Source of the DNA: an uncultured Anaerolineaceae bacterium
GTDB lineage: Bacteria > Chloroflexota > Anaerolineae > Anaerolineales > Anaerolineaceae
Length of the DNA stretch: 34,788 nucleotides
Assembly: GCA_927443345.1 (NCBI GenBank)
Contig: CAKMKJ010000087.1
Location: 1 to 34,788, forward strand
Direction of reading: 5' to 3'
Shown here one piece after another: positions 8,051 to 32,974 of the stretch (positions within the stretch are counted from its first letter, which is position 1; the number at the start of each line of letters is the position of its first letter). Position numbers and translations under genes: made by a program. A model generated the notes under the pieces. The model had not been told where the DNA came from, did not search any database, and saw nothing but the letters and a program-made list of their open reading frames with translations.

Positions 8051-8307
8051 TACAGGGTTTTACGTGCGGACCGGTAAATATCGAGTTTTTTGGTTATCAT
8101 ATTGGGTGCTGAAAAGGGAGCAACGAATTAGACTGCTTGATTTTAAATCAAACAAGTTCAATATCTAGATGAACCATACAATAAATCAGCTTAATCACCC
8201 GCCCTGATGGGCCGTGACATTCGGCTGGTTCAAAAATCGGTCAGAATAAGTATTCACTTAGAATTTTTGCAAGAAAAACGAATTTCCAACTTTTTTGCAT
8301 AATTAAT

Positions 8308-8347
8308 AGTGTGACTTCCTGACCTACTCAGGTGGTCACACTTTTTT
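8308..8347 (+). terminator. Strong hairpin plus T-tract without an upstream gene
   Basis: AGTGTGAC at 8308-8315 pairs with GTCACACT at 8335-8342. An inner CCTGA/TCAGG stem lies within, and TTTTTT follows to 8347. It is a textbook rho-independent terminator, yet the nearest plus-strand gene ends 310 bp earlier and already has its own hairpin. A CATAAT hexamer lies a few bases before the stem. It may end an unannotated small transcript. Confidence 0.7.
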
Positions 8348-8527
8348 ACTATTTAGCGCATTTTCCACTAGACACTTATTAATTGAGGATGAATGTTTTT
8401 TGCTTCAGAATTTAAAACCATGTGACAAAAATAAGGAGTTCAATTCCCTGCTTTTATGATAAAAACAGGGAGTGATACCAGCATTGTGATACTTGATTTT
8501 TGGTTTTTCTTTGCTATATTAAAATTA

Positions 8528-8589
8528 AGTATCCTCCGGAGCCCGCATATACTCTTTTAGAGTCTGGGCCAAGAGGGTACTCCTTTTTT
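8528..8589 (+). ncRNA. Candidate compact structured RNA (~62 nt)
   Basis: Three nested stems are visible. AGTATCCTC (8528-8536) pairs with GAGGGTACT (8573-8581) through one G-U. GCCC (8541-8544) pairs with GGGC (8566-8569). ACTCT (8551-8555) pairs with AGAGT (8559-8563) around a TTT loop. A T-tract follows at 8584-8589. Directly upstream, TTGATT (8493-8498) and TATATT (8515-8520) with a 16-bp spacer would start transcription at about 8527, the first base of the outer stem. A short self-terminating RNA fits better than a gene terminator, because no gene precedes it for 530 bp. I do not recognise a known RNA family. Confidence 0.45.
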
Positions 8590-8701
8590 GTTCCATACAA
8601 GAGTAACATTAACTCGAATTGGACACCGATTGCGTGATCTGTTGATTGAATTTTCTAATGGGATTATCAACCGATTGTATAAGCTTAATATTAGGATAAT
8701 T

Positions 8702-8730
8702 ATTGTCATCATACTATAATAAAACTATAA
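8702..8730 (+). promoter_or_regulatory. Promoter of the NTF2-SDR-FAD operon
   Basis: TTGTCA (8702-8707) and TATAAT (8725-8730) with an exact 17-bp spacer give a near-consensus sigma-70-type promoter. Transcription would start at about 8737, roughly 36 bp before the first start codon. A second TATAAT at 8714-8719 could give an alternative start. Confidence 0.7.
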
Positions 8731-8772
8731 TGTGTAACAAATTAATCAGGTACCCGGAGAAAAAACGCTTAC

Positions 8773-9207
8773 ATGGATGCACTTACTCCCGAACGATTTC
8801 GTGAACTTTGGTCTCGAACATATAATACAGAAGGAAAACCTGATTGGTCGCACATCTTCCCTTACTATCATGAAGATATCGTATTCCAGGACAGCATTCA
8901 ACGCATTGAAGGGATTGAAGCGTTTCGTGAGATGTGTGCCCGCCTTACCAAACGCTGTGAACAATTAAGCATGGAGATCAGCTCTATTGCAATGAATCCG
9001 GGTGAAATACTTTTTGATTGGAAAATGGTGATGATGTTCAACAAGTATCCATCTACACCGGTATTCGGGTGTTCCAAGTTGACACTTGGCAACGATAACC
9101 GCATTATTCACCAGCGAGATTATTTTGATTTGTGGGGCGACATTTTCAACGGAATTCCATATTTCAAAGGACCCTATCGCAAGTTTTTACGCCGGAATTT
9201 TGGTTAA
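8773..9207 (+). CDS. NTF2-like / SnoaL-fold protein
   Basis: A 144-residue protein with the alpha+beta-barrel pattern of SnoaL-like domains. A helical start (LTPERFRELWSRTY) precedes a YYHEDIVFQDSIQRIEGIEAF segment. Later strands include ILFDWKMVMMF, and the protein ends in QRDYFDLWGDIFNGIPYFKGPYRKF. The ending, with Y-F-D-L-W, is typical of NTF2-like proteins encoded beside short-chain dehydrogenases and FAD oxidoreductases. Such domains act as small-molecule isomerases or hydrolases, or simply as binding partners; no catalytic residues can be assigned. GGAG lies about 13 nt before the start. The stop is two bases from the first in-frame ATG of the next gene, so translation is coupled. Confidence 0.7.
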   Translation: MDALTPERFRELWSRTYNTEGKPDWSHIFPYYHEDIVFQDSIQRIEGIEAFREMCARLTKRCEQLSMEISSIAMNPGEILFDWKMVMMFNKYPSTPVFGCSKLTLGNDNRIIHQRDYFDLWGDIFNGIPYFKGPYRKFLRRNFG

Positions 9208-20636: not shown

Positions 20637-21899
20637 TCATGGACAACGGATCAAGCCCTGAGCCCATAAGCATCCGCCGCATGCCAGGTCGGTATTGCCG
20701 AGACAATCTTCCTTGTTCTCCGTTGAAAGCTCACATCCATTACAAAAGGTACAAGGAGAAAAATCGAAACGCTGCACACGGTCACGAAGGTTGACATAAT
20801 TACTATCATTCCAAATCTCAAGCAGGTCATGTTCATTGATATTACCAAGGGAGAATGCATGTGATTCGCGAAAATGGTTCTCAACCAAGTTTTGGTTAGT
20901 GTGTAGAAGTGGCAAACAAGGAGATACACTTCCATCCCAACGAATTGAAGTGCTGCCATGTTCAATAAATGGACAGGTATCCAAAGAGCGTTGAATTTCA
21001 AATCCTGCAATTTCAAGACGATAATTCCGCGATAATATTTCGGCCAAGGGACCTTTGGTTAGCTCATTCCAGTCCATCCGAGGTAAATTCACGAGCGGTA
21101 CAGAGGTACTCTGTCGAGAGATCATATTGTGAATTGTTCGATTGTAAAGTGATTGTTCATTTAATTCAGTGGTGTGTGCTAAAACATTACTAATTGAAAA
21201 ACTTGTAGCCCCAAGATTTGTTCCGAGGCGCAAGATATCAGGCAAATCATTGATATTGCTTTTCATAGCAACAACTGCAATACCTAAATGAGGTTTACTG
21301 TTATCAATATCTGTCGCTTTATAACGAATCTGCCTAAGCGTTTTGAGATTTTCAATTACGTTTGGAAGTGAAGAACCCAAACGAACATCAGCATAACTTT
21401 CTGTTGATGATCCATCGAGTGAAACCCAAAGCATATCCAATCCTGCACGAATAAATTTCAATGAATATTCTTCGCTAAGCAAGCATGCATTAGTGATTAA
21501 CTCAACCCTGGCTCCAATATCCTTAAACCGTTTTACCCAATCGGTTATTAATGGATGCATAAGTGGTTCACCAAAGCCCCCAAAAAAAATCGTCGGCAAT
21601 GGTGTTATTGATTGAATTCCTTCAAATATACGATTAAAGGTTTCTTCATTCATAACTCCAGATTGTTCACCCCACACATTTCGCATGCAGGTACGACACT
21701 CCAAATTGCACATATTGGTTGGTTCAATATAAACCTTTGCAAGATGAGAAACAGGGCGAAACAATCTAATTTCATTGTTTCCTTCATCCAGATAAACATC
21801 AATATCTGGAACCAATCCAAAACGAGCCGCTAATTCCTGGGGGATCAGTAAATTACCATTTTTATCAATATGCGCTTTAATCAACTGCTTTTGATTCAT
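20637..21899 (-). CDS. Radical SAM/SPASM maturase of a tungsten oxidoreductase, AbrB-like N-terminus
   Basis: A 420-residue protein. Residues 5-48 (AHIDKNGNLLIPQELAARFG and the following strand) resemble an AbrB/MazE swapped-hairpin domain. The radical SAM cluster motif is CNLECRTC (C64, C68, C71, as C-x3-C-x2-C), followed by the GGFGEP SAM-binding turn and WVSLDGSS. The C-terminus is cysteine-rich, as in SPASM domains: C309, C328, C383, C386, C389, C399, C407, C410 and C419. I believe it belongs to the family annotated as tungsten cofactor oxidoreductase radical SAM maturase, consistent with its place in an AOR operon. It should modify the AOR, its pterin cofactor or a partner peptide. It starts 13 nt after the MoaD-like gene. 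Confidence 0.8.
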   Translation of the reverse strand: MNQKQLIKAHIDKNGNLLIPQELAARFGLVPDIDVYLDEGNNEIRLFRPVSHLAKVYIEPTNMCNLECRTCMRNVWGEQSGVMNEETFNRIFEGIQSITPLPTIFFGGFGEPLMHPLITDWVKRFKDIGARVELITNACLLSEEYSLKFIRAGLDMLWVSLDGSSTESYADVRLGSSLPNVIENLKTLRQIRYKATDIDNSKPHLGIAVVAMKSNINDLPDILRLGTNLGATSFSISNVLAHTTELNEQSLYNRTIHNMISRQSTSVPLVNLPRMDWNELTKGPLAEILSRNYRLEIAGFEIQRSLDTCPFIEHGSTSIRWDGSVSPCLPLLHTNQNLVENHFRESHAFSLGNINEHDLLEIWNDSNYVNLRDRVQRFDFSPCTFCNGCELSTENKEDCLGNTDLACGGCLWAQGLIRCP

Positions 21900-21912
21900 T
21901 TAGGAATTTTTC

Positions 21913-22152
21913 CTATCCTCCGCCTACCGGTGGAAATATTCCGACCACATCCCCTGCCTGTAATTTGACTGACGGTGCCTGGATTACATTATTGACGAAC
22001 ACGATATGTATTTCTTCATCAGGTATTTGCAATATATCAATGATCTCTTGTGCAGTGGCAGTATCAGGCAGATTCATTTCATATGAATTTCCAGCTTTTA
22101 TTCCGCTCTTATATCGGGTAAGCGTTGCGAATAATTTCACGTTGACAAGCAT
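21913..22152 (-). CDS. MoaD/ThiS-like sulfur carrier ending in Gly-Gly-Gly
   Basis: A 79-residue beta-grasp protein. VNVKLFATLTRY begins the fold, a TAQEIIDILQIP helix follows, and it ends in GDVVGIFPPVGGG. The exposed C-terminal diglycine is what MoaD needs for adenylation and thiocarboxylate formation. It should carry the sulfur that becomes the dithiolene of the pyranopterin. It lies between an unrecognised gene and the radical SAM maturase in the AOR operon. The stop codon sits in GGAGGATAG, so its last codons double as the ribosome site of the maturase gene. Confidence 0.85.
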   Translation of the reverse strand: MLVNVKLFATLTRYKSGIKAGNSYEMNLPDTATAQEIIDILQIPDEEIHIVFVNNVIQAPSVKLQAGDVVGIFPPVGGG

Positions 22153-22183
22153 ATTATTCTCCTAGCACGCCCATAAGATATGT

Positions 22184-22987
22184 TTACAATGATGAAATTT
22201 TATAAACAATATTGGACTGGGTAGATTTATTTTCAGATTCTACTTCCTCAGCAGGCATAAGACCTAATGTTATTTGTTGTTTATCTTTTTCAAGTTTGTA
22301 TCTGGCAAATCCTAATTCGGATAAGGATGTGAAGGGCACATATTCTACAATGGTCCAGTTATGGAGCGTTAGCTCACGTAGATAAAAAGATTGTAAAGCA
22401 CCGACATCAGATAAACCCGAAAATGCGCGCCAGTTATCTGGATCAGAAATATCTTTAAGAATGTGTTGTGGATCAATAGCAGTAAAATCTGGTGGCAAAG
22501 GCAAACCTTCTGAAGAAAGTTGCACACCAGCAAAAGTTTTTGGGAATTTTAAACTAGTAATTATTTTTGTAGCTTCAGGTTCGAATTTTTCTCGCTCGGT
22601 TTTCGGATGCGTTACCAAAAAATGCAATATGAGGAAATCATGCATCAATATTCCTGTCCATAAGCGCAGGTTATCCTTTTTTGGCAAGACTATCTCAGCC
22701 TCCAAACCAGAAGCTTCGCCGAGACGCCAGGGAGCTGAGCCAACATTTTTTGCACCAAATAAACTCGCAAGTTTTCCTAGTTGGATATTCCATAAAGGTT
22801 CAACGTTTTGACGCGCCCAGTTCCATTCTCCACGAATTTGTATTTGACCAGCACCCGAACCGTCATAATTCGGTTCGATCGCGTCAACAGTTGAAACAAA
22901 ATAATCTATGTCCTGGATTTTTTGATGGTGCCAAAAATCGGGATATGTGATTTCATATCCCCAATAAATGTGCTGAAATTCAGTCAT
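22184..22987 (-). CDS. Unrecognised protein of the tungstoenzyme operon
   Basis: I do not recognise this family. The chosen ATG at 22987 gives 267 residues; a longer reading from a GTG at 23023 would run through a perfect hairpin and is rejected. It has no signal peptide or membrane helix and no cysteine or histidine motif. Residues about 5-145 (YWGYEITYPDFWHH, GLEAEIVLPKKDNLRLWTGIL, LILHFLVTHP, IITSLKFPKTF) have the strand order and ending seen in PsbP/Mog1-type domains of stress proteins, and the second half may be a related alpha+beta unit. This fold resemblance is a guess. Its position between the AOR and MoaD-like genes suggests an AOR assembly or subunit role. Confidence 0.6.
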   Translation of the reverse strand: MTEFQHIYWGYEITYPDFWHHQKIQDIDYFVSTVDAIEPNYDGSGAGQIQIRGEWNWARQNVEPLWNIQLGKLASLFGAKNVGSAPWRLGEASGLEAEIVLPKKDNLRLWTGILMHDFLILHFLVTHPKTEREKFEPEATKIITSLKFPKTFAGVQLSSEGLPLPPDFTAIDPQHILKDISDPDNWRAFSGLSDVGALQSFYLRELTLHNWTIVEYVPFTSLSELGFARYKLEKDKQQITLGLMPAEEVESENKSTQSNIVYKISSL

Positions 22988-23000
22988 TTGATTTATTCTT

Positions 23001-23030
23001 TCCGGGTGTGGAGAAAACCCCACACCCGGA
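23001..23030 (-). promoter_or_regulatory. Perfect intergenic hairpin between the AOR gene and the next gene
   Basis: TCCGGGTGTGG (23001-23011) and CCACACCCGGA (23020-23030) form an 11-bp GC-rich stem with an 8-base loop. On the transcribed minus strand no T-tract follows; AAAGAATAAATC follows instead. It is more likely an mRNA end-protecting or processing stem than a terminator. It could set high AOR expression relative to the downstream genes. Confidence 0.65.
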
Positions 23031-23057
23031 ATAATTATAATTTAGGAAAAGGAAATC

Positions 23058-24812
23058 TTATTCTTCATGGACCCAGGCAAATACTGAGTCAAGTTGATCA
23101 TTAGTGATGGTCCACTTAACATTATGGGGCGGAAGAGATTCGCTAAGCATAAATTCAGGTGGGCGATCGTCTGCTGAAGTAAATCCGGCATGTTCATTGA
23201 ACAGTCGCTCCATTTTCAATATCTCTTTGCCTAATGAAATGACATCATTGCCGGTAATTTTCAGACCAGTGACTCCCGCTACTGATTCTGCCATTCCTTC
23301 CCAACCTTTTGCAATGTCAAGGATCGGAAATGCAATAAACAAACAATATCCAGTACTATCGATAAAAGCAGTTGCTGCCTGGAATGTAAGGGAAAGCTCG
23401 GTTTTTCCAACATCTGAAAGCGGGTCTAGTTTTCCACTCACGCCTGCAATCTCTGGTGCAATGGTGTAACCAGCAGTGTGATCTGCACCCATTGGAGTGG
23501 TTACGTAAGTCACACCGATCCCTTTAACTGCACGAGGTTCATAAGCAGGCATCGATTGACCTTTTACCACCGGAACCCGGCTAACACCAAAAGCTTTGGC
23601 TGTAGCCTCACAACCCTGACCCAGAATGCGTCCGAGAGGTGTTCCTTTTCGAATCTCATCGAAAGTCTTAAAAGCACCTTCAGCGTCGCCAAATTCAAGT
23701 AAACCGCCCTCCATCGCTACTGCGATCGTATTGCCAGCTTCGATAGTGTCCAATCCAATATCGTTACACTCTCGAGTCATTTGGGCAATATAATCCAGCT
23801 TGTCGATGCCGCAGTTAGCACCTAACGACCAGGTGGTTTCATATTCAATACAAGATGCGATTGCTTTACCCGTTTCATCAGGGTAAATATTTGAGCACTT
23901 AATGATGCATCCGGGATGGCAACCGTGACCCATTGTCCCTTCGCCGCCACGTTCTTCACAATTTTCAGCCATCGCTTCACCAGATATTTTGGTTGCACCT
24001 TCGAATTGCCCTGCACTAAAGTTTCGGGTAGGTAAACCTCCGGCTTCATTTAATAGGTTAACCAAAACGGCTGTACCATAAGTATTTAATGCACCACCTT
24101 TTTTGGTTAATCCGTGTTCCTGAATGGATTCCGTCAGTTTCTTTCGGCCTTCTTTAAACAATTCCTCATTGGAGATTTCGACACCAGGACCATCGCCAAT
24201 AATCACTATGGCTTTCACGCCACGTGCCGCCAAAACTGCACCCATACCGCCTCGTCCGGCATAACGTCCTGGTCTATTTTCAGGATCATTCACCGAAATA
24301 CCGGCATTAGATAATTTCATCTCACCAGCTTGACCAATCCCAATTACTGCCGATTTTGGATATTTCTTCCAAAGAATTTCATCAACGTCGTACATACCTT
24401 TACCGACAATATCTGAAGCAGACTCAAACTTAACACCGTCATTGTTGATTACCAGGGTGTACCATTTTCCTTTTTCTGGCGTGCCTTCAACAATTATCGC
24501 TGCCAGGCGGAGCTTTGCTATCATTTGTCCACAAAGGCCGCCCGCATTTGACTCTTTAATACCACCAGTCAGTGGGCTTTTACCACCGAATGATGTGCGC
24601 CCGCTACTGGGTGCGGCTGGAGAACCAGTGACCCATCCTGGAGCAATTACGATTTTATTATTGGGGCCGAGCGGATGACACAGAGGATCCACTTCATCAC
24701 ATACAATTGCGGATGTTAAGCCACGGCCAGCCCACTTCGACCATTTTGCCGGCACCTCCTCATAAGCTGCCTTCAAATTTGTCATGTCAATTCTTAGTAT
24801 TTTTTTTGCCAT
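23058..24812 (-). CDS. Aldehyde:ferredoxin oxidoreductase-family tungstoenzyme
   Basis: A 584-residue protein covering the full AOR length. The N-terminal domain has SGRTSFGGKSPLTGG and the pterin-contact stretch AGRGGMGAVLAARGVKAIV. The iron-sulfur cysteines are C298, C302 and C306 in CHPGCIIKC plus C490 in DSTGYC. The first spacing is thus C-x3-C-x3-C, where the classic Pyrococcus enzyme has C-x2-C-x3-C. E323/E325 and H445 (GADHTAGY) lie where the active-site acid and histidine are expected. The enzyme should oxidise an aldehyde to an acid, or the reverse, with ferredoxin, using a tungsten bis-pyranopterin. AAGGAG lies 9 nt before the start. Operon partners are two MoaD-like proteins and a radical SAM maturase. 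The substrate is unknown. Confidence 0.88.
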   Translation of the reverse strand: MAKKILRIDMTNLKAAYEEVPAKWSKWAGRGLTSAIVCDEVDPLCHPLGPNNKIVIAPGWVTGSPAAPSSGRTSFGGKSPLTGGIKESNAGGLCGQMIAKLRLAAIIVEGTPEKGKWYTLVINNDGVKFESASDIVGKGMYDVDEILWKKYPKSAVIGIGQAGEMKLSNAGISVNDPENRPGRYAGRGGMGAVLAARGVKAIVIIGDGPGVEISNEELFKEGRKKLTESIQEHGLTKKGGALNTYGTAVLVNLLNEAGGLPTRNFSAGQFEGATKISGEAMAENCEERGGEGTMGHGCHPGCIIKCSNIYPDETGKAIASCIEYETTWSLGANCGIDKLDYIAQMTRECNDIGLDTIEAGNTIAVAMEGGLLEFGDAEGAFKTFDEIRKGTPLGRILGQGCEATAKAFGVSRVPVVKGQSMPAYEPRAVKGIGVTYVTTPMGADHTAGYTIAPEIAGVSGKLDPLSDVGKTELSLTFQAATAFIDSTGYCLFIAFPILDIAKGWEGMAESVAGVTGLKITGNDVISLGKEILKMERLFNEHAGFTSADDRPPEFMLSESLPPHNVKWTITNDQLDSVFAWVHEE

Positions 24813-24881
24813 TGCAGTAATCTCCTTCCTTTTCTCTTGGTTGGTTGTAATTATTGCGTTTTGCCCGAAAATATGTATTGC

Positions 24882-25235
24882 TCAATTCTTTTGATATGAA
24901 TGATACATAGCCCCTAGTTTATCGAGCGTTTCTTTGAGTCCTGCTGAGATGGGAAGTCCATCACGATATTGGTACGGATATAGACGGTCAACTGAAAAAA
25001 TACCTACGTGATCACCATCATTGAGCAACTCGTTAGCATTTGTACTAATCCCCGGAACTTCGCAAAGAACTGCGTTGATGAACAAATAACCTCTTTCTTC
25101 TTCGGGAATTCCCAGCAATTGCAGTAATTCGTGTTTCCCTGATCCTGGAATTACCTTTATATCTGTTTGAGCAACATGCTTCCCGCCCCCAAACCTCGCA
25201 AGGGAGCCATACAAACTTACATTTACAGTGATCAT
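24882..25235 (-). CDS. MoaD-like beta-grasp protein lacking C-terminal Gly-Gly
   Basis: A 117-residue protein, first in the AOR operon. The core aligns with the other MoaD-like protein by eye: VNVSLYGSLARFGGG against VNVKLFATLTRYKSG, LLGIPEEERGYLFINAVL against ILQIPDEEIHIVFVNNVI, and GDHVGIF against GDVVGIF. Where the other ends in PPVGGG, this one continues SVDRLYPYQYRDG and a 24-residue tail rich in charged residues. It therefore cannot be activated as a normal sulfur carrier unless it is cleaved. It may be a structural subunit, like the small beta-grasp partners of some AOR-family enzymes, or a scaffold for cofactor insertion. Confidence 0.75.
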   Translation of the reverse strand: MITVNVSLYGSLARFGGGKHVAQTDIKVIPGSGKHELLQLLGIPEEERGYLFINAVLCEVPGISTNANELLNDGDHVGIFSVDRLYPYQYRDGLPISAGLKETLDKLGAMYHSYQKN

Positions 25236-25300
25236 AATTGTTTCAATCAGCGACTCATATTTTTCAATTACAGCAAATAAGAAATTAATATAAAACTAAG

Positions 25301-25318
25301 CGATACTTAAGTTTATCG
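25301..25318. promoter_or_regulatory. CTTAAG-centred near-palindrome before the AOR operon
   Basis: CGATACTTAAGTTTATCG is nearly symmetric about CTTAAG and shares the 11-mer ACTTAAGTTTA with the terminator palindrome 90 bp away (25395-25405). It lies about 65 bp before the first start codon of the AOR operon. It may be the site of an activator or repressor; the adjacent LuxR-type response regulator is one candidate. The evidence is only positional. Confidence 0.35.
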
Positions 25319-25380
25319 TTTTTGATAATGGTTTACACCAGTAAAAAGAATAGGTTCGTTCAGAACAAAATGGTTGAATA

Positions 25381-25408
25381 ATAAAAAAACCTAAACTTAA
25401 GTTTAGGT
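25381..25408 (-). terminator. Terminator of the HK-RR transcript
   Basis: A perfect 20-bp palindrome (arms ACCTAAACTT and AAGTTTAGGT, 25389-25408) is followed on the minus strand by TTTTTTTAT (25381-25389). It lies 65 bp beyond the response regulator stop and separates that transcript from the AOR operon. Confidence 0.75.
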
Positions 25409-25473
25409 GTCAATTTTGTCCTTAGTGAATCTTTTCTGGTCTGAATCGACAGACTTGTCCTTACGAAAAAGAA

Positions 25474-26115
25474 CTATTCAATCAAATGGTTTCTGCGTGC
25501 TATTGAAACTGCTTCACCACGACTATTTGCTTCAAACTTTGAAAGGATATTGGAAACATGGAATTTAATCGTTGACAGGCTGAGTGTAAGTTCTGCTGAT
25601 ATCTCGGTATTGCTTTTGCCTATCGATAATAACGCCAACACTTGCTTCTCTCGTATGGTTAGCTCGATAGTAGGCGTTTTTGCAGTAGATGGCTGACTGT
25701 CTGACAAAGGGGCGCTTGCTGGTGAATACGACACGTTGCCAGAATTTATATTACGGATGATATTAGCAAGTTCATTTGCAGTGGCGTCTTTATACAGGAA
25801 TCCAGAAATGCCAGCCTTGAATGCATCATCAATTAATTGAGATTCAGTAAAGCTGGTAAGCGCGATAATCTTGATGCGAGGGAATTTTTTATGAATTTTT
25901 TGTGTGGCGTGTAATCCATCCATGTTTGGCATAATGAGATCCATTAATATAATGTCCGGATTTAGTTTCGCTGCAAGATTTACAGCTTCAACACCATTCA
26001 CAGCCTCACCAACCAAATCAAGATCGTCAAAAGCCATTAAAAACATTCGTAAACCACTGCGAACCATCGCATGGTCATCGACAATAAGAATGCGAATAGG
26101 GTTTGCGTGGATCAT
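25474..26115 (-). CDS. NarL/FixJ-type response regulator
   Basis: A 213-residue protein from the ATG at 26115. The receiver domain begins ILIVDDHAMVRSGL (acidic pair) and carries the phospho-acceptor D59 in DIILMDLIMPNMDG, then LTSF and LYKDAT with the conserved lysine. The C-terminal LuxR helix-turn-helix is LTIREKQVLALLSIGKSNTEISAELTLSLSTIKFHVSNILSKF. I chose 26115 over the longer reading from 26142 because it overlaps the kinase stop as ATGA and has GGAG 7 nt upstream. It should be phosphorylated by the kinase encoded just before it. The adjacent AOR operon, on the same strand, is a plausible target. Confidence 0.9.
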   Translation of the reverse strand: MIHANPIRILIVDDHAMVRSGLRMFLMAFDDLDLVGEAVNGVEAVNLAAKLNPDIILMDLIMPNMDGLHATQKIHKKFPRIKIIALTSFTESQLIDDAFKAGISGFLYKDATANELANIIRNINSGNVSYSPASAPLSDSQPSTAKTPTIELTIREKQVLALLSIGKSNTEISAELTLSLSTIKFHVSNILSKFEANSRGEAVSIARRNHLIE

Positions 26116-27332
26116 GTGGTCTCCAAATCTTGATTTACCCATTTAAGTCGAACAGTAGTCCCTTGATCTATCTGGCTTTTTATCGAAAGTTTTGCGCCAA
26201 TTAATTCAGCTCTTTCTTTCATAATCTTAAACCCCAAATGAAAAGGAGAATCTTTTGATTCGACAAAACCACGACCGTCATCAGTGATGGTTAAGGTCGC
26301 ATTTTTACAACGACTATCTGGCGATTTGCCGTCTTGTTTTAAAACAATCGAAATGTTGTCTGCTTCTGCATGCTTAATAATATTGTTGATCGCCTCTTGT
26401 GTGATTCTATAAAAAGTAAGTCGCACATCAACAGGCATTGTTTTTTTATTGTCGCAAAAATAGGTAACTGGTTTACGCAATCTTCCTGATGCTGCTTCTG
26501 CAATTTGCCTGATCAACTCTTCCAAACGAGCTTCTTCAATAGCACGTGGACGTAATTCTAATAATAATGAACGCATCTCTGCCAAGGCCCCACGGGTTAA
26601 CAATTGAAGTTCACTCAACCCTTCAAGACCCTGGGCAGGATCAAGTTCGAATACTTTGGGCAATGACTCAGCTATTAAACTGGCAGAAAAAAGATTCTGA
26701 ATTACAGAATCATGTAATTCACGAGCCAAACGGTTTCGTTCCTGGTTTACTGCTTGCAATTGTGCATTTAATCGCAGCCTTGCATTATCAATCGCCAAAG
26801 CTGCCTGAATTGAAAAGTCAATTGCCAAATCTAATTCGTCATCATTTAACTTGTGTCTTTTAACAAAAAATAATGTCAACACGCCATAACTCTCGTTACG
26901 GATCTCAATTGGTACAGATAAGATTGAACGATATTTACGAGTCAACCCTTCAAAAGAATCAACCTGTGCAGGGCAAAAATCAGATTTATTTAGAATTTCT
27001 GAAAGATTTGTGCAAAAGACTGGTTGTCTGCATAAATAAGCTTTTCTTGTTGTGATTTTTTCAAGCACTGGACCGGCAGATTGAATATGGTCAACCGAGA
27101 GCCCCACCACAGATTGAATTACTAATTCATCGTCCGAATTTAGGCGATATATTGCTACAGCATCAGCACTAAGCAACGGCAGAGCTTGATGGACAATAAA
27201 ATCCAGGAGTTGGTCGAGTGGCAAATCGGAATTTAGTGCCGAGAGCGTGCTGCGCAAACTCACTGCAACCAATCTCCGGCGTTCAAGTTCTGCCATCTCT
27301 TTATATGAAATAGTTATCTCTGATTGGTTCAT
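26112..27332 (-). CDS. GAF-domain histidine kinase (HisKA_3 type)
   Basis: A 406-residue protein without membrane helices, so a cytoplasmic sensor. Residues about 30-185 form a GAF domain (LDFIVHQALPLLSADAVAIYRL to LAIDFSIQAALAIDNARLRL) with cysteines C101, C107 and C120, which could bind a metal, heme or redox cluster. NRLARELHDSVIQNLFSASLIAE is the HisKA_3 dimerisation helix with phospho-acceptor H207. The ATPase part has QEAINNIIKHAEA (N box), DDGRGF (G1) and GFKIMKERAELIGA (G2). It is cotranscribed with the response regulator through a 4-nt overlap. The signal may be redox or a small ligand; it cannot be specified. Confidence 0.87.
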   Translation of the reverse strand: MNQSEITISYKEMAELERRRLVAVSLRSTLSALNSDLPLDQLLDFIVHQALPLLSADAVAIYRLNSDDELVIQSVVGLSVDHIQSAGPVLEKITTRKAYLCRQPVFCTNLSEILNKSDFCPAQVDSFEGLTRKYRSILSVPIEIRNESYGVLTLFFVKRHKLNDDELDLAIDFSIQAALAIDNARLRLNAQLQAVNQERNRLARELHDSVIQNLFSASLIAESLPKVFELDPAQGLEGLSELQLLTRGALAEMRSLLLELRPRAIEEARLEELIRQIAEAASGRLRKPVTYFCDNKKTMPVDVRLTFYRITQEAINNIIKHAEADNISIVLKQDGKSPDSRCKNATLTITDDGRGFVESKDSPFHLGFKIMKERAELIGAKLSIKSQIDQGTTVRLKWVNQDLETT

Positions 27333-27834: not shown

Positions 27835-28755
27835 TTAACAGGAATATTTCTCTCCATTGCAACAACGGTTTGCATGTTTTTCCCATTCATCCCGGCTTCC
27901 AAAGAATATTACTTTGGCGATTTCCTCCCACTCTCTTACAAATTCTCTCATACCTTTTACTTTTGAACAATCAGAATAACATGCTTCATCCATAACAGTG
28001 TCAAAACTTCTTTTGAGTCGAAACTCATGATCACAAAAATTATCACCAATCGCTAATGTATGGGTTCTTTTAAAAACAAGATTTGGAAAAATAGTATGGT
28101 ACGTGATATGGTCGCACATGCAGATGGCTGCGGCGGTAAAAATCAATCCATATTGCCGTAATATTTCTACGTTGACGCATCTTGTAACATGTAGCCTCAG
28201 TTCACTTTTATCTTCAGCCAGATGCACAGTACCATCAAAGCCCTTTTCTTTATCAATTTCTGTGCCTAAATAATTGCGTGCCTGTCTAAGCCAGATTTCT
28301 ACCGAGTCAATGTTTTCTACAGGATGGTATTTGGATTTCATCATATCCAATATCACGGGAACCAAGGTGTTGGCAATGATTTTATCTGATTCCTCTGATC
28401 TAATGATCCTAGCAAGCGATTGAAAAAAGACTATAACCGGTATGTTTTCATTAAATTTTCTTCTATAAAAAATCTCTTGTTTTTTGCTTGAAAGGTTGAA
28501 TTTTTCAGGCGCCCATTGCGGTTTCTTGAACAAAATATCCCAAAGGATAGCTTTAATAAATAGAAACCTTCCTTTTGTGACTCCGAGATTTTTAATAATC
28601 TCTCTGTTTAAGGAACGTAAATAATTAAGGGGTTTTATCCTATAAGGTTGGCTTTCTAAAGGCATATTTATAGCCCACTGTTCAAATGAGAAAGTTTTCC
28701 ATTCGGTTCCAGATTCTGGTTTATCGGTGAAGATAAAAAAATCATCCTTCATCAA
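27835..28755 (-). CDS. L-2-amino-thiazoline-4-carboxylate hydrolase-family protein
   Basis: A 306-residue soluble protein that is more AT-rich than its neighbours. The C-terminal half has the features of the ATC hydrolase family: LHVTRCVNVEILRQYG, then ICMCDHITYHTIF, and the conserved GDNFCDHEFRLK near residue 245. Named members open the thiazoline ring of ATC on a bacterial route to cysteine, but most relatives are of unknown function. The last 20 residues (EKHANRCCNGEKYSC) carry three cysteines that are not part of the usual family ending and could bind a metal. It stands alone, 103 bp from the AbrB gene. I am fairly sure of the family but not of the reaction. Confidence 0.6.
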   Translation of the reverse strand: MMKDDFFIFTDKPESGTEWKTFSFEQWAINMPLESQPYRIKPLNYLRSLNREIIKNLGVTKGRFLFIKAILWDILFKKPQWAPEKFNLSSKKQEIFYRRKFNENIPVIVFFQSLARIIRSEESDKIIANTLVPVILDMMKSKYHPVENIDSVEIWLRQARNYLGTEIDKEKGFDGTVHLAEDKSELRLHVTRCVNVEILRQYGLIFTAAAICMCDHITYHTIFPNLVFKRTHTLAIGDNFCDHEFRLKRSFDTVMDEACYSDCSKVKGMREFVREWEEIAKVIFFGSRDEWEKHANRCCNGEKYSC

Positions 28756-29299: not shown

Positions 29300-30475
29300 C
29301 TATGGCGTCCAATTCTGGGGGGCATGCCAGGTCAGCCAAACGTCAGTTCCATAACCCGGTCGGCTGTCTACTTTCAGTTTTGCACCTAGGGCTTCTGCAC
29401 GTTCGACCACCATATCTAAGCCAGGATAACCTAAGTGGGATTGTTCAGAGTCAAATATGCGACCGTTGTCATGAATGCGTAATTGGATTACATCTCCAAT
29501 ATGCTGAAGATTGATCTCAACCTGGCTTGCATTGTGTATGACAACGTTTTCCAGCGCTTCCTGGCACACACGATAAAAGACTAACTGGACTTTAGTTGGG
29601 AGTATGAATTTCCCAACAATATTTACAGCAACCGAGGTGTTGATCCGATCGGATAGCATTTCGCCTAACTTACGCAGCAGATCACCCAGGTCTAAACCGT
29701 CCAGCGCAGAGGGATTCAGTTCAGTCAGGAGACTGCGCATTTTGGCTAGAGCGCCTTTCGTCAAGCGACGCAAGTCTTCGAGAGATCGCCGTGCCTCCGC
29801 CTGATCCTTTTCCCACAATTGCGGCAAGACTTCGGCTATCAGGCTGGCGGAGAACAGAGTCTCGTTAACGGCATTATGCAGGTCGTGCGCTAAGTATTGT
29901 CGTTCTTCCAACAATTCGTACGCCGCCTTTTCAGCTGCAAGTATCGCTTCGTTGCTTTTCTTCTGGTCGGTCAAGTCGATGACCACCAGGCCAAAGCAAT
30001 CGAGAATCCCTTCTACGTTCAGGGGAATCACCGAAAGATAGACCGGCACCAGTGTTCCATCTCCGCTAGTGAGAACCAGCTCCTCGTGACGTTTCTCAGG
30101 TGTATCTTTCTTCAGCAGCGCAAGAAATATATCAAGATAATCGGGCGCTATCCAGGTGTGGATGGTGGAACTGATCACCCTTTCGAGCGGGGTTTTGAGC
30201 ATTTCGGCAAAGCAGCAGTTAGCATATAAAATTACACCCTCAGGTGTAAGGGTCATTGCGCCTTCTATCATACCCTCGATCAATGCCCGGTAAGGACGTT
30301 CAGCGCTGGTGAGGGTAAAAACCTGCTCACCTCCCGCGCCCGTGACGACGATCGCATCCACCTCGCCGCTGCGAATGGCGCGCAATGTATCTTCGGATTC
30401 TTCCAGCCGTATACGAAGCCCGGCGTTTTCATCTACAAGTTGCTTTTTATTTGGGAACGCGGTTTTCATACGCAT
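29300..30475 (-). CDS. PAS histidine kinase of the KaiBC operon, atypical catalytic residues
   Basis: A 391-residue cytoplasmic protein. Residues 12-62 (ESEDTLRAIRSGEVDAIVV, then GGEQVFTLTSAERPYR) form the coiled N-terminal segment often found in PAS kinases beside KaiC-like genes. A PAS domain spans about 62-172 (ALIEGMIEGAMTLTPEGVILYANCCFAEML). QYLAHDLHNAVNETLFSASLIAE is the HisKA_3 helix with H200. The residue after the histidine is N201 instead of the usual D/E, and the G1 box reads DNGRIF instead of DGRGF, so activity may be reduced. The gene lies 34 nt after the second kaiB and ends the operon. It probably senses or reports KaiC/KaiB state; no response regulator is adjacent. Confidence 0.82.
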   Translation of the reverse strand: MRMKTAFPNKKQLVDENAGLRIRLEESEDTLRAIRSGEVDAIVVTGAGGEQVFTLTSAERPYRALIEGMIEGAMTLTPEGVILYANCCFAEMLKTPLERVISSTIHTWIAPDYLDIFLALLKKDTPEKRHEELVLTSGDGTLVPVYLSVIPLNVEGILDCFGLVVIDLTDQKKSNEAILAAEKAAYELLEERQYLAHDLHNAVNETLFSASLIAEVLPQLWEKDQAEARRSLEDLRRLTKGALAKMRSLLTELNPSALDGLDLGDLLRKLGEMLSDRINTSVAVNIVGKFILPTKVQLVFYRVCQEALENVVIHNASQVEINLQHIGDVIQLRIHDNGRIFDSEQSHLGYPGLDMVVERAEALGAKLKVDSRPGYGTDVWLTWHAPQNWTP

Positions 30476-30509: not shown

Positions 30510-30851
30510 TCAGATCTTCTTTTGTAAATCCAGCCCTACCAGAACGCGTTCACTCTTTGACATATCTCCAATGATCCGGCGCAGTGGGAGCGGCAATTTT
30601 TTGATGAGTGTCGGCGCGGCGATAATCTGCTCGCCCTGGGCAAGTTGAGGTTGTTGGTACAGGTCGATCACCTCCAACTCATAGCGCCCTTTTAAGTATT
30701 CCTCGCAGAATTTTTTGACATTCATAATGGCGCGCAAAGACTGCGGCGTCGTGCCGGTCACATATAACCGCAAGACATAGTGTATTTCAGACAGTCGGAT
30801 TAACGATTGTTCAAACTGATGAGTCGAATCGGTTACTCTCTCGGTTAGCAT
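30510..30851 (-). CDS. kaiB: KaiB-like protein, second copy in the operon
   Basis: A 113-residue protein. VLRLYVTGTTPQSLRAIMNVKKFCEEYLKGRYELEVIDLYQQPQLA is the thioredoxin-like beta-alpha-beta half of KaiB. AAPTLIKKLPLPLRRIIGDMSKSERVLVGLDL is the part that refolds in fold-switching KaiB. The family segment A-x-P-T-L with K-x-x-P-x-P is kept. KaiB binds phosphorylated KaiC rings in clocks, and KaiB-like proteins act in stress responses elsewhere. The N-terminal extension (about 25 residues) is longer than in cyanobacteria. It follows the other kaiB by 9 nt. Confidence 0.88.
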   Translation of the reverse strand: MLTERVTDSTHQFEQSLIRLSEIHYVLRLYVTGTTPQSLRAIMNVKKFCEEYLKGRYELEVIDLYQQPQLAQGEQIIAAPTLIKKLPLPLRRIIGDMSKSERVLVGLDLQKKI

Positions 30852-30860
30852 AAGATGTTC

Positions 30861-31253
30861 CTATTCCCGCGGCAGCAGATCCAATCCGATCAGCACGCGT
30901 TCGGTGTTAGAAAGATCGCCGATAATCTTACGCACAGGCACTGGCAGTTTTCGTACCAGAGTCGGGATTGCCAGAATCTGATCACCTCTCGCTAGTGTTG
31001 GATTTTCCAGCAAGTCCACTACTTCAATGAAATATTGACCTTTCAGGTGTTCTTCGCAAATTTTTTTGAGATTGGCAAAAGCCATCATGGATTTGGGCGT
31101 TTGTCCGGCAACATACAAGCGCAAGATAAAGGCATCCGATTTTGCTTGGGCGAACTGGGTTTCACTTGCGCCAACCCCCATATCCTCCCGATCTTTTTTG
31201 GGGAGTGGGGGTGCATTCAGATCGGTCTTGCGATCGACAGATTCCTTTTTCAT
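30861..31253 (-). CDS. kaiB: KaiB-like protein, first copy in the operon
   Basis: A 130-residue protein. After a charged, probably disordered extension of about 40 residues comes the KaiB domain: [46 protein letters not shown] and [33 protein letters not shown]. It overlaps the kaiC stop by 4 nt (ATGA), so it is translated right after KaiC. The two kaiB copies are clearly paralogous but differ in the extension and in many surface positions, which suggests separate partners or states. Confidence 0.9.
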
Positions 31254-32974
31254 TTCGAGTTTCCTTTCTGTCTGTTCGGTTTGGCGTCCGCTTTGCGGAT
31301 CTGAGCCATATCCACACGTTCCTGCGTCTGGTGGTCTTCTCGCGCATGTTCCTGCCCGATAATGTTCATCGCCTCGAATTCTTGTGCCTCAAACTCAAAG
31401 CGTAATGCGGTAATTTGCGCTTCCATAATTTTACGTTTGCGTTCCAGATCAAGTTTTCGCCGCTCAACATCCTGATCGTGTATTGTCTGCGCGACTTGCT
31501 CTTGCGCTTCTTGAGCCAGACGCGCCGAGCCGGTCAGCACACCCCCCGAACCGATGTAAACATCGCGCAATTCAATTCCGTGATCGGTGATAAGGAACTC
31601 GCGTATCTGGTTCGAGTGGGCCATTCCACGCGATTTCAAGATATACATGCCTCGATTGCGCTCGCCGCTGATTTCGATATCGCGCAACAAAAGCCAAGTG
31701 TCAATCAGAGATGAAATGGCAATATCGGTTTGCTCGAGTGCGCCACCGCCTGCTGTAAGATTTGTGAATAAACCGGTGATTTCTTTCATTTTCAAGAAAT
31801 CCACCAGTCGCATTAACATCGCTTTAACTTCGGTCGCATTGCCCCCCATAACGAAACTGTTCAATGGATCCACAATCACAACTTTTGGTTTGAACGCGTT
31901 GATCGCTTTGTGCATCATGGTCAGGTGCATCTCCAAGCCTGTAAAGGTGGGTCGGTTCGCCTGAAACTGGAGAAGACCTTTCTTTTCCCACTTTTGCAGG
32001 TCAATCCCGATGGAATGCATGTTGCGCATGATCTGGCTGGGAGATTCCTCAAAGGAAAAATACAGTGTTTGTTCGCCACGCTGGCAGGCGGCTGCGACGA
32101 AATGCGCGGCGAGACTGCTCTTACCAGTGCCTGCCGTGCCTGAGACGAGTACGCTGCTTCCCCGGAAAAACCCCGCACCGCCCAGCATCGAATCGAGGCG
32201 CTCAATACCGGTGGGTATACGTTGAGTGGAGGCGATCTGTTGTAGACCAAGTGAGGTAACAGGCAGTACCGAAATACCATCTTCGTCTATCAGAAATGGG
32301 TATTCGTTCGTGCCATGTGATGAGCCGCGATACTTAACCACACGCAACCGCCGCGAGGAGACCTGCTCGCTCGAACGATGGTCGAGAATGATGACGCAGT
32401 CAGAAACGTACTCTTCCAATCCATAGCGGGTCAGTGACCCTTCGCTGCGCTCGCCGGTGATGATGGCGGTCACGCCTTTCTCCTTCAGCCAACGAAACAA
32501 GCGGCGTAGTTCTGCGCGCAGGATGAGCTCATTGGGCAAGCCGGAGAAGAGTGACTCGATTGTATCCAGTACAACGCGTTTGGCTCCGATGGAGTCAATA
32601 GCCTGCCCGAGGCGAATGAACAACCCTTCCAAATCATATTCACCGGTCTCTTCGATTTCGCTGCGCTCAATATACACAAAATCAATCACCATCTTTTTAC
32701 GTGCGATCAGGTCTTTTAGGTCGAAACCAAGTGAGGCGACGTTTTGGATCAGGTCATTTTCGGTCTCTTCGAAAGCCATAAAGACGCCAGGCTCGTTGTA
32801 CTGCCTCGCGCCACGCACTAGAAATTCCATGGCGAGGAGCGTCTTGCCACAGCCAGCGCTACCACATACCAGGGTTGGCCGGCCTTTAGGCAAACCGCCA
32901 CTGGTAATTTCGTCCAACCCTTGTATGCCTGTCGGCGCTTTGGGTAGTCGCATTTTTTCTTCTGGCATATTCAT
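31250..32974 (-). CDS. kaiC: KaiC-like double-RecA-domain ATPase/kinase
   Basis: A 574-residue protein with two KaiC domains. CI has Walker A GSAGCGKT (38-45) and the catalytic FEE at 68-70. CII has GTAGTGKS (279-286) and FEE at 308-310. The autophosphorylation site of Synechococcus KaiC (T426, S431, T432) aligns with T416, S421 and S422 in [12 protein letters not shown], so the kinase residues are kept with Ser in place of the second Thr. VEIRGEMSR-like [19 protein letters not shown] follows. A tail of about 90 residues (485-574), rich in Q, E, R and K, is a predicted coiled coil in place of the A-loop region that KaiA binds. AGGAG lies 11 nt before the ATG. It heads the operon kaiC-kaiB-kaiB-PAS kinase; kaiA is absent. 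Confidence 0.92.

Follow-up and report, generated by a model that had tools for sequence, protein, structure and literature searches.

Which partners does an enzyme of the aldehyde ferredoxin oxidoreductase (AOR) family need for its own assembly? AOR-family enzymes are widespread tungstoenzymes, and we know of no chaperone for this family. The question is raised by a five-gene operon on a contig of an uncultured Anaerolineaceae bacterium (CAKMKJ010000087.1; the whole stretch of 34,788 nucleotides that was analysed is referred to as the window). In order of transcription, the operon encodes a MoaD-like protein of 117 residues (MoaD117), an AOR-family enzyme, a protein of 267 residues (UNK), a MoaD/ThiS-family sulfur carrier ending in diglycine (MoaDgg, or GG-MoaD in general) and a radical S-adenosylmethionine (SAM)/SPASM protein. 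The UNK gene is kept beside the AOR gene in some uncultured Chloroflexota, so that UNK may be a dedicated helper for AOR building. We give an even chance to the reading that the locus represents an AOR-family enzyme with a private assembly set, in which UNK, probably together with MoaD117, would be an assembly factor of one AOR subfamily; both the functions and the metal are predictions.

Linkage of UNK to an AOR gene

A search of 400 genomes of the phylum with the single UNK sequence returned 2 genomes and was replaced by a two-sequence profile, which had matches in 32 of the 400 genomes searched from the same order, spread over 16 of 130 genera. Two of these genomes were subsequently dropped: G504, with a 73-residue match and no UNK found by phmmer in the region, and G642, with a match at an E value of 0.004 within a 701-residue frame and 12 bits in the later neighbourhood search. 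Among the remaining 30 genomes, the region within 6 kb of UNK held an AOR gene in 29, a GG-MoaD gene in 29, MoaD117 in 27 and the radical SAM gene in 9. Two of the three MoaD117 misses (G540 and G426) concern contigs that start within the AOR gene, and the third is G431. The adjacency of UNK and AOR expected by chance is about 2–5% per genome with 4–10 AOR copies. An earlier sequence-only reading of this DNA had grouped UNK and the 117-residue MoaD-like protein with the AOR, and this co-occurrence, at 29 and 27 of 30 genomes, stands well above that expectation.

A scan of named species with a single peptide pattern, which distant UNKs could escape, yielded 23 UNK loci, all in Chloroflexota and all in metagenome-assembled genomes by title; many of their contigs recur in the 30-genome set. 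AOR was present at 23 of 23, GG-MoaD at 22, MoaD117 at 21 and the radical SAM gene at 10, and both MoaD117 misses are contigs starting within AOR. Profiles of UNK and MoaD117 found nothing beside the other three AORs of the source genome (3.67 Mb, four AOR-family genes in all). The conserved core consists of AOR, MoaD117, UNK and a GG-MoaD.

The core occurs in different gene orders. Architecture A is MoaD117-AOR-MoaDgg-UNK, with no radical SAM gene, and architecture B, that of the window, is MoaD117-AOR-UNK-MoaDgg-(MoaA)-radical SAM. Architecture C, AOR-radical SAM-MoaDgg-MoaD117, has no UNK (L065, L067 and L068). Additional genes within 6 kb of UNK in the 30 genomes were MoaA on the same strand (6), DUF6976 (6), a third ubiquitin-like (Ubl) protein (9), ThiF (5) and MoaE (3); the MoaA, DUF6976, MoaE and third-Ubl queries were drawn from the same loci, so that each of these four counts includes the query once. 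DUF6976 (PF22396) is encoded upstream of MoaD117 (L069, L100, L101, L102, L104 and L105). The third Ubl is only weakly ubiquitin-like (L109, L110, L111, L112, L114, L094, L122, L123 and L125), and one member matches Ub-Mut7C (E value 0.019). L101, which shares its contig with L135, has a short-chain dehydrogenase gene (8306-9109) separating UNK from GG-MoaD.

The AOR-family enzyme

The AOR matches PF02730 (1.5e-57, 195.1 bits against a cut-off of 29.8) and PF01314 (8.4e-83, 279.1 bits against a cut-off of 27). Residues C298, C302, C306, C490, E325 and H445 are invariant in all 48 aligned AORs and align with residues of 1AOR, the first two cluster cysteines being spaced one residue wider in the window's protein than in 1AOR. 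From the literature on the P. furiosus enzyme, we take the four cysteines to be the [4Fe-4S] ligands and E325 and H445 to be the active-site Glu and His. The protein is therefore a probable W- or Mo-dependent bis-pyranopterin enzyme of the aldehyde ferredoxin oxidoreductase type, with the metal predicted from sequence. Identity to the window's AOR is 70–80% for A-type enzymes, 54–58% for C-type enzymes and 33–36% for the partners of D-type radical SAM proteins. A/B-type AORs have 34 residues unseen in C AORs, including W24, W27, W60, W117, W567 and W580.

UNK has a predicted Mog1/PsbP-type domain

No Pfam, NCBIfam or PDB-sequence relative of UNK was found, in agreement with the sequence-only reading, to which this protein had been unrecognisable. 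A search of 24 UNK members against Pfam at E≤1 likewise gave no Mog1/PsbP/DUF1795-type family among the matches. A structural model built from 24 sequences, with a predicted local distance difference test score (pLDDT) of 88.9, has two domains, and structural comparison of this model assigns residues 1-152 to the Mog1/PsbP-type fold. The best matches were 3lyd_A for residues 7-152 (Z 14.1, 138 aligned, root-mean-square deviation 3.2) and PsbP 2xb3 for residues 1-149 (Z 13.6, 140 aligned, root-mean-square deviation 3.2), followed by LpqN (Z 12.7), EagT6 (12.1), DcrB (10.2) and yeast Mog1 (10.0), with SciW also within Z 10–14. The C-terminal part (residues 164-267) has weak structural matches, to BamC (Z 6.3) and to an F. 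tularensis protein (Z 6.8), and its fold is therefore not firmly named.

UNK is free of cysteine, no redox or catalytic motif was spotted, and no obvious N-terminal signal peptide was apparent by eye in the UNK sequences. Mean pairwise identity is 48.5% for UNK (n=24), 54.8% for MoaD117 (n=22) and 79.2% for AOR (n=32), which makes UNK and MoaD117 the faster-changing members of the core. Since assembly factors, chaperones and immunity proteins all share the Mog1/PsbP fold, the proposed function of UNK is taken from its linkage and not from its fold.

MoaD117 belongs to a family without the diglycine end

The window's MoaD117 by itself has no match in Pfam or NCBIfam, while 6 of 16 aligned members of its family match ThiS (best 4e-5). 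Its model (pLDDT 71) matches MoaD/Urm1 structures with Z 10.5 over 77 residues, and in a PDB sequence search the protein matched a MoaD weakly (1vjk, E value 0.0079) and four deacetylase chains more weakly still. The C-terminus reads ..HSYQKN, and none of 22 aligned family proteins ends in GG. Instead, the family keeps a tail of the form RLYPYQYRDG ... HSY, in which P87, Q89, Y90, R91 and G93 are invariant among 16 aligned proteins; residues 86-96 have pLDDT <50 and are thus predicted to be disordered in the protein alone. The tail is also kept in the UNK-less C-type operons, so that its partner is not UNK alone and is likelier the AOR or the machinery that makes molybdopterin (MPT).

A MoaD117 search of 400 genomes matched 17 at 1e-4, of which 7 score at least 130 bits; the remaining matches score at most 45 bits and look like other Ubls. 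Each of the 7 high-scoring genomes either has an AOR at least 55% identical to that of the window or is the window's own genome. Other Chloroflexota AOR operons (L189, L190, L191, L193, L194 and L195) encode one GG-MoaD and one or two non-GG Ubls, whose ends (such as ..DMALLYV, ..DMALLYKWYF and ..NMGMLYC) differ from that of MoaD117. Non-GG MoaD relatives beside AOR are therefore a wider feature, and the pairing of a carrier with a non-carrier MoaD, part of the combination singled out in the sequence-only reading, is not peculiar to the window's operon.

The radical SAM protein looks like a late addition

MoaDgg matches PF02597 (3e-10, 40.9 bits against a cut-off of 22.5) and ends in ..FPPVGGG. 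The radical SAM protein carries the Pfam radical SAM and SPASM domains, and its nearest NCBIfam model is TIGR04317, the tungsten cofactor oxidoreductase radical SAM maturase (2.1e-84, 283.6 bits, under the 380-bit equivalog cut-off of the model). The CX3CX2C motif (C64, C68 and C71) is invariant in all 25 relatives, and all 25 match SPASM. The N-terminal ~50 residues lie outside the TIGR04317 model. Among the 25 relatives this extension matches PF04014 (MazE/AbrB-type) in 10 (best 2.7e-5), MraZ in 4 and AbrB-like in 2; the window protein's own extension does not match PF04014.

Not counting the window itself or a single fragment contig from G392, 27 radical SAM loci were collected from the 400 genomes of the phylum. 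AOR was found within 5 kb at 12 of them, GG-MoaD at 13 and neither at 14, two of these 14 (L049 and L062) being on contigs that are short or cut near the gene; L066 has GG-MoaD and lacks AOR within 5 kb. A contig break divides the radical SAM gene of G392, and AOR is found next to the remaining part, so that 13 of 27 is the fairer AOR count. At the level of genomes, AOR was present in 24 of 24 with the radical SAM protein (own genome excluded) versus 13 of 20 without it (Fisher p 0.002), the latter being listed relatives and not a random draw. Because AOR is near 12 (or 13) of the 27 loci and in 24 of 24 genomes, the link between radical SAM and AOR is real but loose. The 'established pairing' of AOR and maturase in the sequence-only reading thus describes the 12 loci (13 with G392) that have AOR within 5 kb and does not extend to the others.

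Trees of the AORs and the radical SAM proteins were built by a 'quick' method, with support from the Shimodaira–Hasegawa-like approximate likelihood ratio test (SH-aLRT) only and with long-branch warnings. In the AOR tree, A and B form one clade (SH-aLRT 98), and the B clade (98) is nested within A. The 13 rows of B include 12 with a radical SAM gene, which is missing from the L136 operon. In the radical SAM tree, the 11 rows from B come out as a clade (100) that groups with the D-type and apart from C; D-type proteins, where paired, adjoin the AORs of 33–36% identity mentioned above. Mean identity of GG-MoaD (22 sequences) is 32% between B and A and 45% between B and C. As the A and B AORs are 70–80% identical, the low B-to-A value indicates that the cofactor module was probably exchanged. 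The core of AOR, MoaD117 and UNK looks older on these comparisons, with GG-MoaD, often MoaA, and radical SAM exchanged or added in B.

A radical SAM relative at E≤1e-25 is absent from 18 of the 30 UNK genomes; the A-type genomes G427 and G605 have a relative of 35–38% identity elsewhere in the genome. AOR column 429 (V versus I) is the sole column that separates B and C from A, and this lone column gives no support for an obligatory residue modification special to the radical SAM operons. The column test compares B and C with A and is blind to a change at a residue common to all groups. Taken from sequence comparison, the radical SAM gene looks like a late addition to the operon, and the joint switch of GG-MoaD lineage and gain of radical SAM suggests for this clade a role on the cofactor and not on the AOR chain. 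Presence in 9 of 30 UNK operons and the nested position of B in the AOR tree speak against the dedicated five-gene line for a modified tungsten site that the sequence-only reading had proposed.

Proposed role and alternatives

In the private-assembly reading, MoaDgg would carry sulfur for the pyranopterin dithiolene, as expected from the known role of its family. UNK would hold or position the apo-AOR for cofactor insertion, in the manner of TorD, NarJ and XdhC for other Mo/W enzymes. MoaD117 would have kept the MoaD fold and lost the GG end, and its conserved tail may serve to dock it to the AOR or to the machinery of MPT synthesis. Radical SAM would have been recruited later with a different GG-MoaD (and with MoaA in 6 of the 30 UNK operons), acting on the side of the cofactor and not making an obligatory alteration to the AOR chain. 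The steps given to UNK, MoaD117 and radical SAM draw on linkage and fold. A more specific proposal, in which the AOR family (bis-pyranopterin, no nucleotide) would have in UNK the first private assembly chaperone found for it, with a MoaD converted from sulfur carrier to docking or scaffold protein helping to channel newly made W-pyranopterin into one Chloroflexota AOR subfamily, is tentative and in our judgement somewhat short of an even chance. In 29 of 30 genomes the UNK gene is linked to this one AOR subfamily, which makes the UNK family a concrete candidate for a role in AOR cofactor insertion.

Several observations weigh against an assembly role. The action of UNK and MoaD117 on the AOR is deduced from gene linkage and predicted folds, and the fold predicted for UNK is functionally diverse, with immunity proteins, lipoproteins and photosystem subunits ranking beside chaperones. 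The linkage counts ignore kinship. UNK does not adjoin AOR in G431, where a 71%-identical AOR and MoaD117 lie together on another contig, and MoaD117 does not adjoin AOR in two genomes (G192 and G361). Moreover, the MoaD117 of G431, which is outside the 16 aligned proteins, has H for Q (WPYHYR), so that the tail is not strictly invariant. Finally, C-, D- and F-type AORs occur without UNK, and UNK is hence not generally needed for AOR assembly.

The strongest rival, unlikely in our view although to be taken seriously, regards UNK and MoaD117 as permanent AOR subunits, structural or regulatory, that would serve the stability of a heteromeric enzyme or the docking of an electron carrier. Their linkage is as tight as that of a subunit (29 and 27 of 30), the 34 A/B-specific AOR residues with their six Trp could form an interface, and multi-subunit AORs have been described (PMC6365974, PMC13328260). 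Nevertheless, UNK has no cysteine and is therefore no Fe-S redox subunit, both proteins change much faster than the AOR, and the MoaD-like AorD and AorE of Aromatoleum aromaticum are presented as putative maturation factors (PMC6365974). It is improbable that UNK has nothing to do with the AOR, whether as a bystander or as a Mog1/PsbP-fold protein with another target (stress, envelope or ligand binding) that is carried along in the operon: the linkage holds across 16 genera and down to 32% UNK identity, persists while the position of UNK relative to MoaDgg shifts between the A and B orders, and involves proteins whose starts show no obvious signal peptide by eye. The diversity of the fold would suit such a protein, as would the fact that UNK was found in one phylum only and its absence beside other AOR types.

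Very improbable is a single dedicated line of all five genes, with radical SAM making a required change to the tungsten site or to the AOR chain. In each of the nine B operons that have radical SAM, its gene directly follows MoaDgg or MoaA, which fits such a line, as do the AOR counts (24 of 24 genomes with radical SAM versus 13 of 20 without) and the radical SAM-Ubl-AOR trios known in Thermococcus (PMC11323500). The same gene, however, is found in 9 of the 30 UNK operons, 18 of the 30 UNK genomes have no relative of it at 1e-25, the B clade lies within A, no AOR residue except the V/I column splits B and C from A, and 14 of the 27 radical SAM loci, two of them on contigs that end near the gene, lack both AOR and GG-MoaD within 5 kb.

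Transcription unit and neighbouring genes

All five reading frames are on the minus strand within 20637-25235, with gaps in transcription order of 69, 70, 31 and 13 nt, as the sequence-only reading had described. Gene starts were assigned mechanically, and UNK has an alternative GTG start at 23023 that would give 279 residues. A terminator-like palindrome lies between MoaD117 and the response-regulator gene upstream, so that the five genes are probably transcribed as a unit of their own.

Features of the operon and its surroundings in the window
Feature	Length (aa)	Coordinates	Strand	Basis
MoaD117	117	25235-24882	minus	ORF list
AOR-family enzyme	584	24812-23058	minus	ORF list, Pfam
UNK	267	22987-22184	minus	ORF list, predicted fold, linkage
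MoaDgg (GG-ending MoaD/ThiS-family sulfur carrier, B-type lineage)	79	22152-21913	minus	ORF, Pfam
Radical SAM/SPASM protein	420	21899-20637	minus	ORF list, Pfam, NCBIfam
Terminator-like palindrome between response-regulator gene and MoaD117		25408-25389	minus	
NarL-type response regulator, upstream of operon		25474-26142	minus	
GAF/HisKA_3 histidine kinase, upstream of operon		26112-27332	minus	
L-2-amino-thiazoline-4-carboxylic acid hydrolase family match (PF14196)		27835-28755	minus	
PAS histidine kinase		29300-30475	minus	
KaiB-domain gene		30510-30851	minus	
KaiB-domain gene		30861-31253	minus	
kaiC		31250-32974	minus	

The response regulator and kinase pair is also found upstream of the operon in 4 of 29 other UNK genomes (within 6 kb) and is a candidate regulator outside the conserved core. 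Two TAAACTTAAGT boxes lie upstream of MoaD117 in the interval 25236-25473. Upstream of MoaD117 in L133, L134, L135, L138, L140 and L141, a CGAAAGTAyAG-like motif is followed by CTGTACTTT and a TATACT-like stretch, as judged by eye. These boxes and motifs are possible sites for the adjacent response regulator. A search of the window with Rfam for a molybdenum or tungsten cofactor (Moco/Tuco) riboswitch gave no match. Elsewhere in the window, kaiC, the two KaiB-domain genes and the PAS histidine kinase are consecutive.

Comparison with known systems

The adjacency of MoaD and AOR genes has been described as strict, sometimes with MoaA, MoaE and MoeB (Iyer et al. 2006, PMC1779556), and an archaeal confirmation followed in 2010 (PMC2948915). 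These clusters have the same partners as the operon family of the window, while UNK and a SPASM radical SAM protein are not among the partners that the consulted part of the 2006 study lists. In Thermococcus kodakarensis, TK1064-TK1065-TK1066 encode a radical SAM protein, a MoaD-family Ubl and an AOR side by side, as in the window, and deletion of the cluster Ubl lowered AOR activity to ~54% in one medium (2024, PMC11323500). That cluster, as described in the sections consulted, has one Ubl and no mention of an UNK, whereas the window has two MoaD-like proteins and UNK.

The Class I AOR/WOR systems with WorX have a ThiS-like gene predicted to serve pterin synthesis (Putumbaka et al. 2026, PMC13328260) and share with the window a single large AOR-type W-pterin subunit and the nearby ThiS-like gene. 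The window differs in having two MoaD-like proteins, one without GG, and UNK; the main text of that paper has zero occurrences of MoaD, Chloroflex or Anaerolin. Two MoaD-like genes, regarded as putative maturation factors, are also present in aorABCDE of Aromatoleum aromaticum (2019, PMC6365974), the main text of which has zero occurrences of 'radical'. The enzyme of that operon, unlike that of the window, is a three-subunit NAD-linked AOR.

TorD, NarJ and XdhC are operon-encoded proteins that ready an apoenzyme for cofactor insertion (PMC10609526). UNK is likened to them by its proposed way of working, which on the side of UNK is suggested by gene linkage; they serve enzymes of the bis(pyranopterin guanine dinucleotide) or xanthine-oxidase type, and the likeness lies in this proposed function rather than in sequence or fold. 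With the Mog1/PsbP/DUF1795 proteins (PsbP, DcrB, EagT6, SciW and LpqN), UNK has the fold of residues 1-152 in common; a sequence relation was not detected, and UNK has an additional second domain. A similar two-domain make-up, Mog1/PsbP-like and OmpA-like, is reported for PA1624 of P. aeruginosa (PMC7716261). No description of an UNK-like protein was found in the literature covered, where UNK has no searchable name and to which subscription journals mostly do not belong. Clusters of AOR, MoaD and radical SAM are therefore already described, while the new elements are UNK, a MoaD117 that has a conserved tail in place of GG, and evidence that radical SAM joined this operon late.

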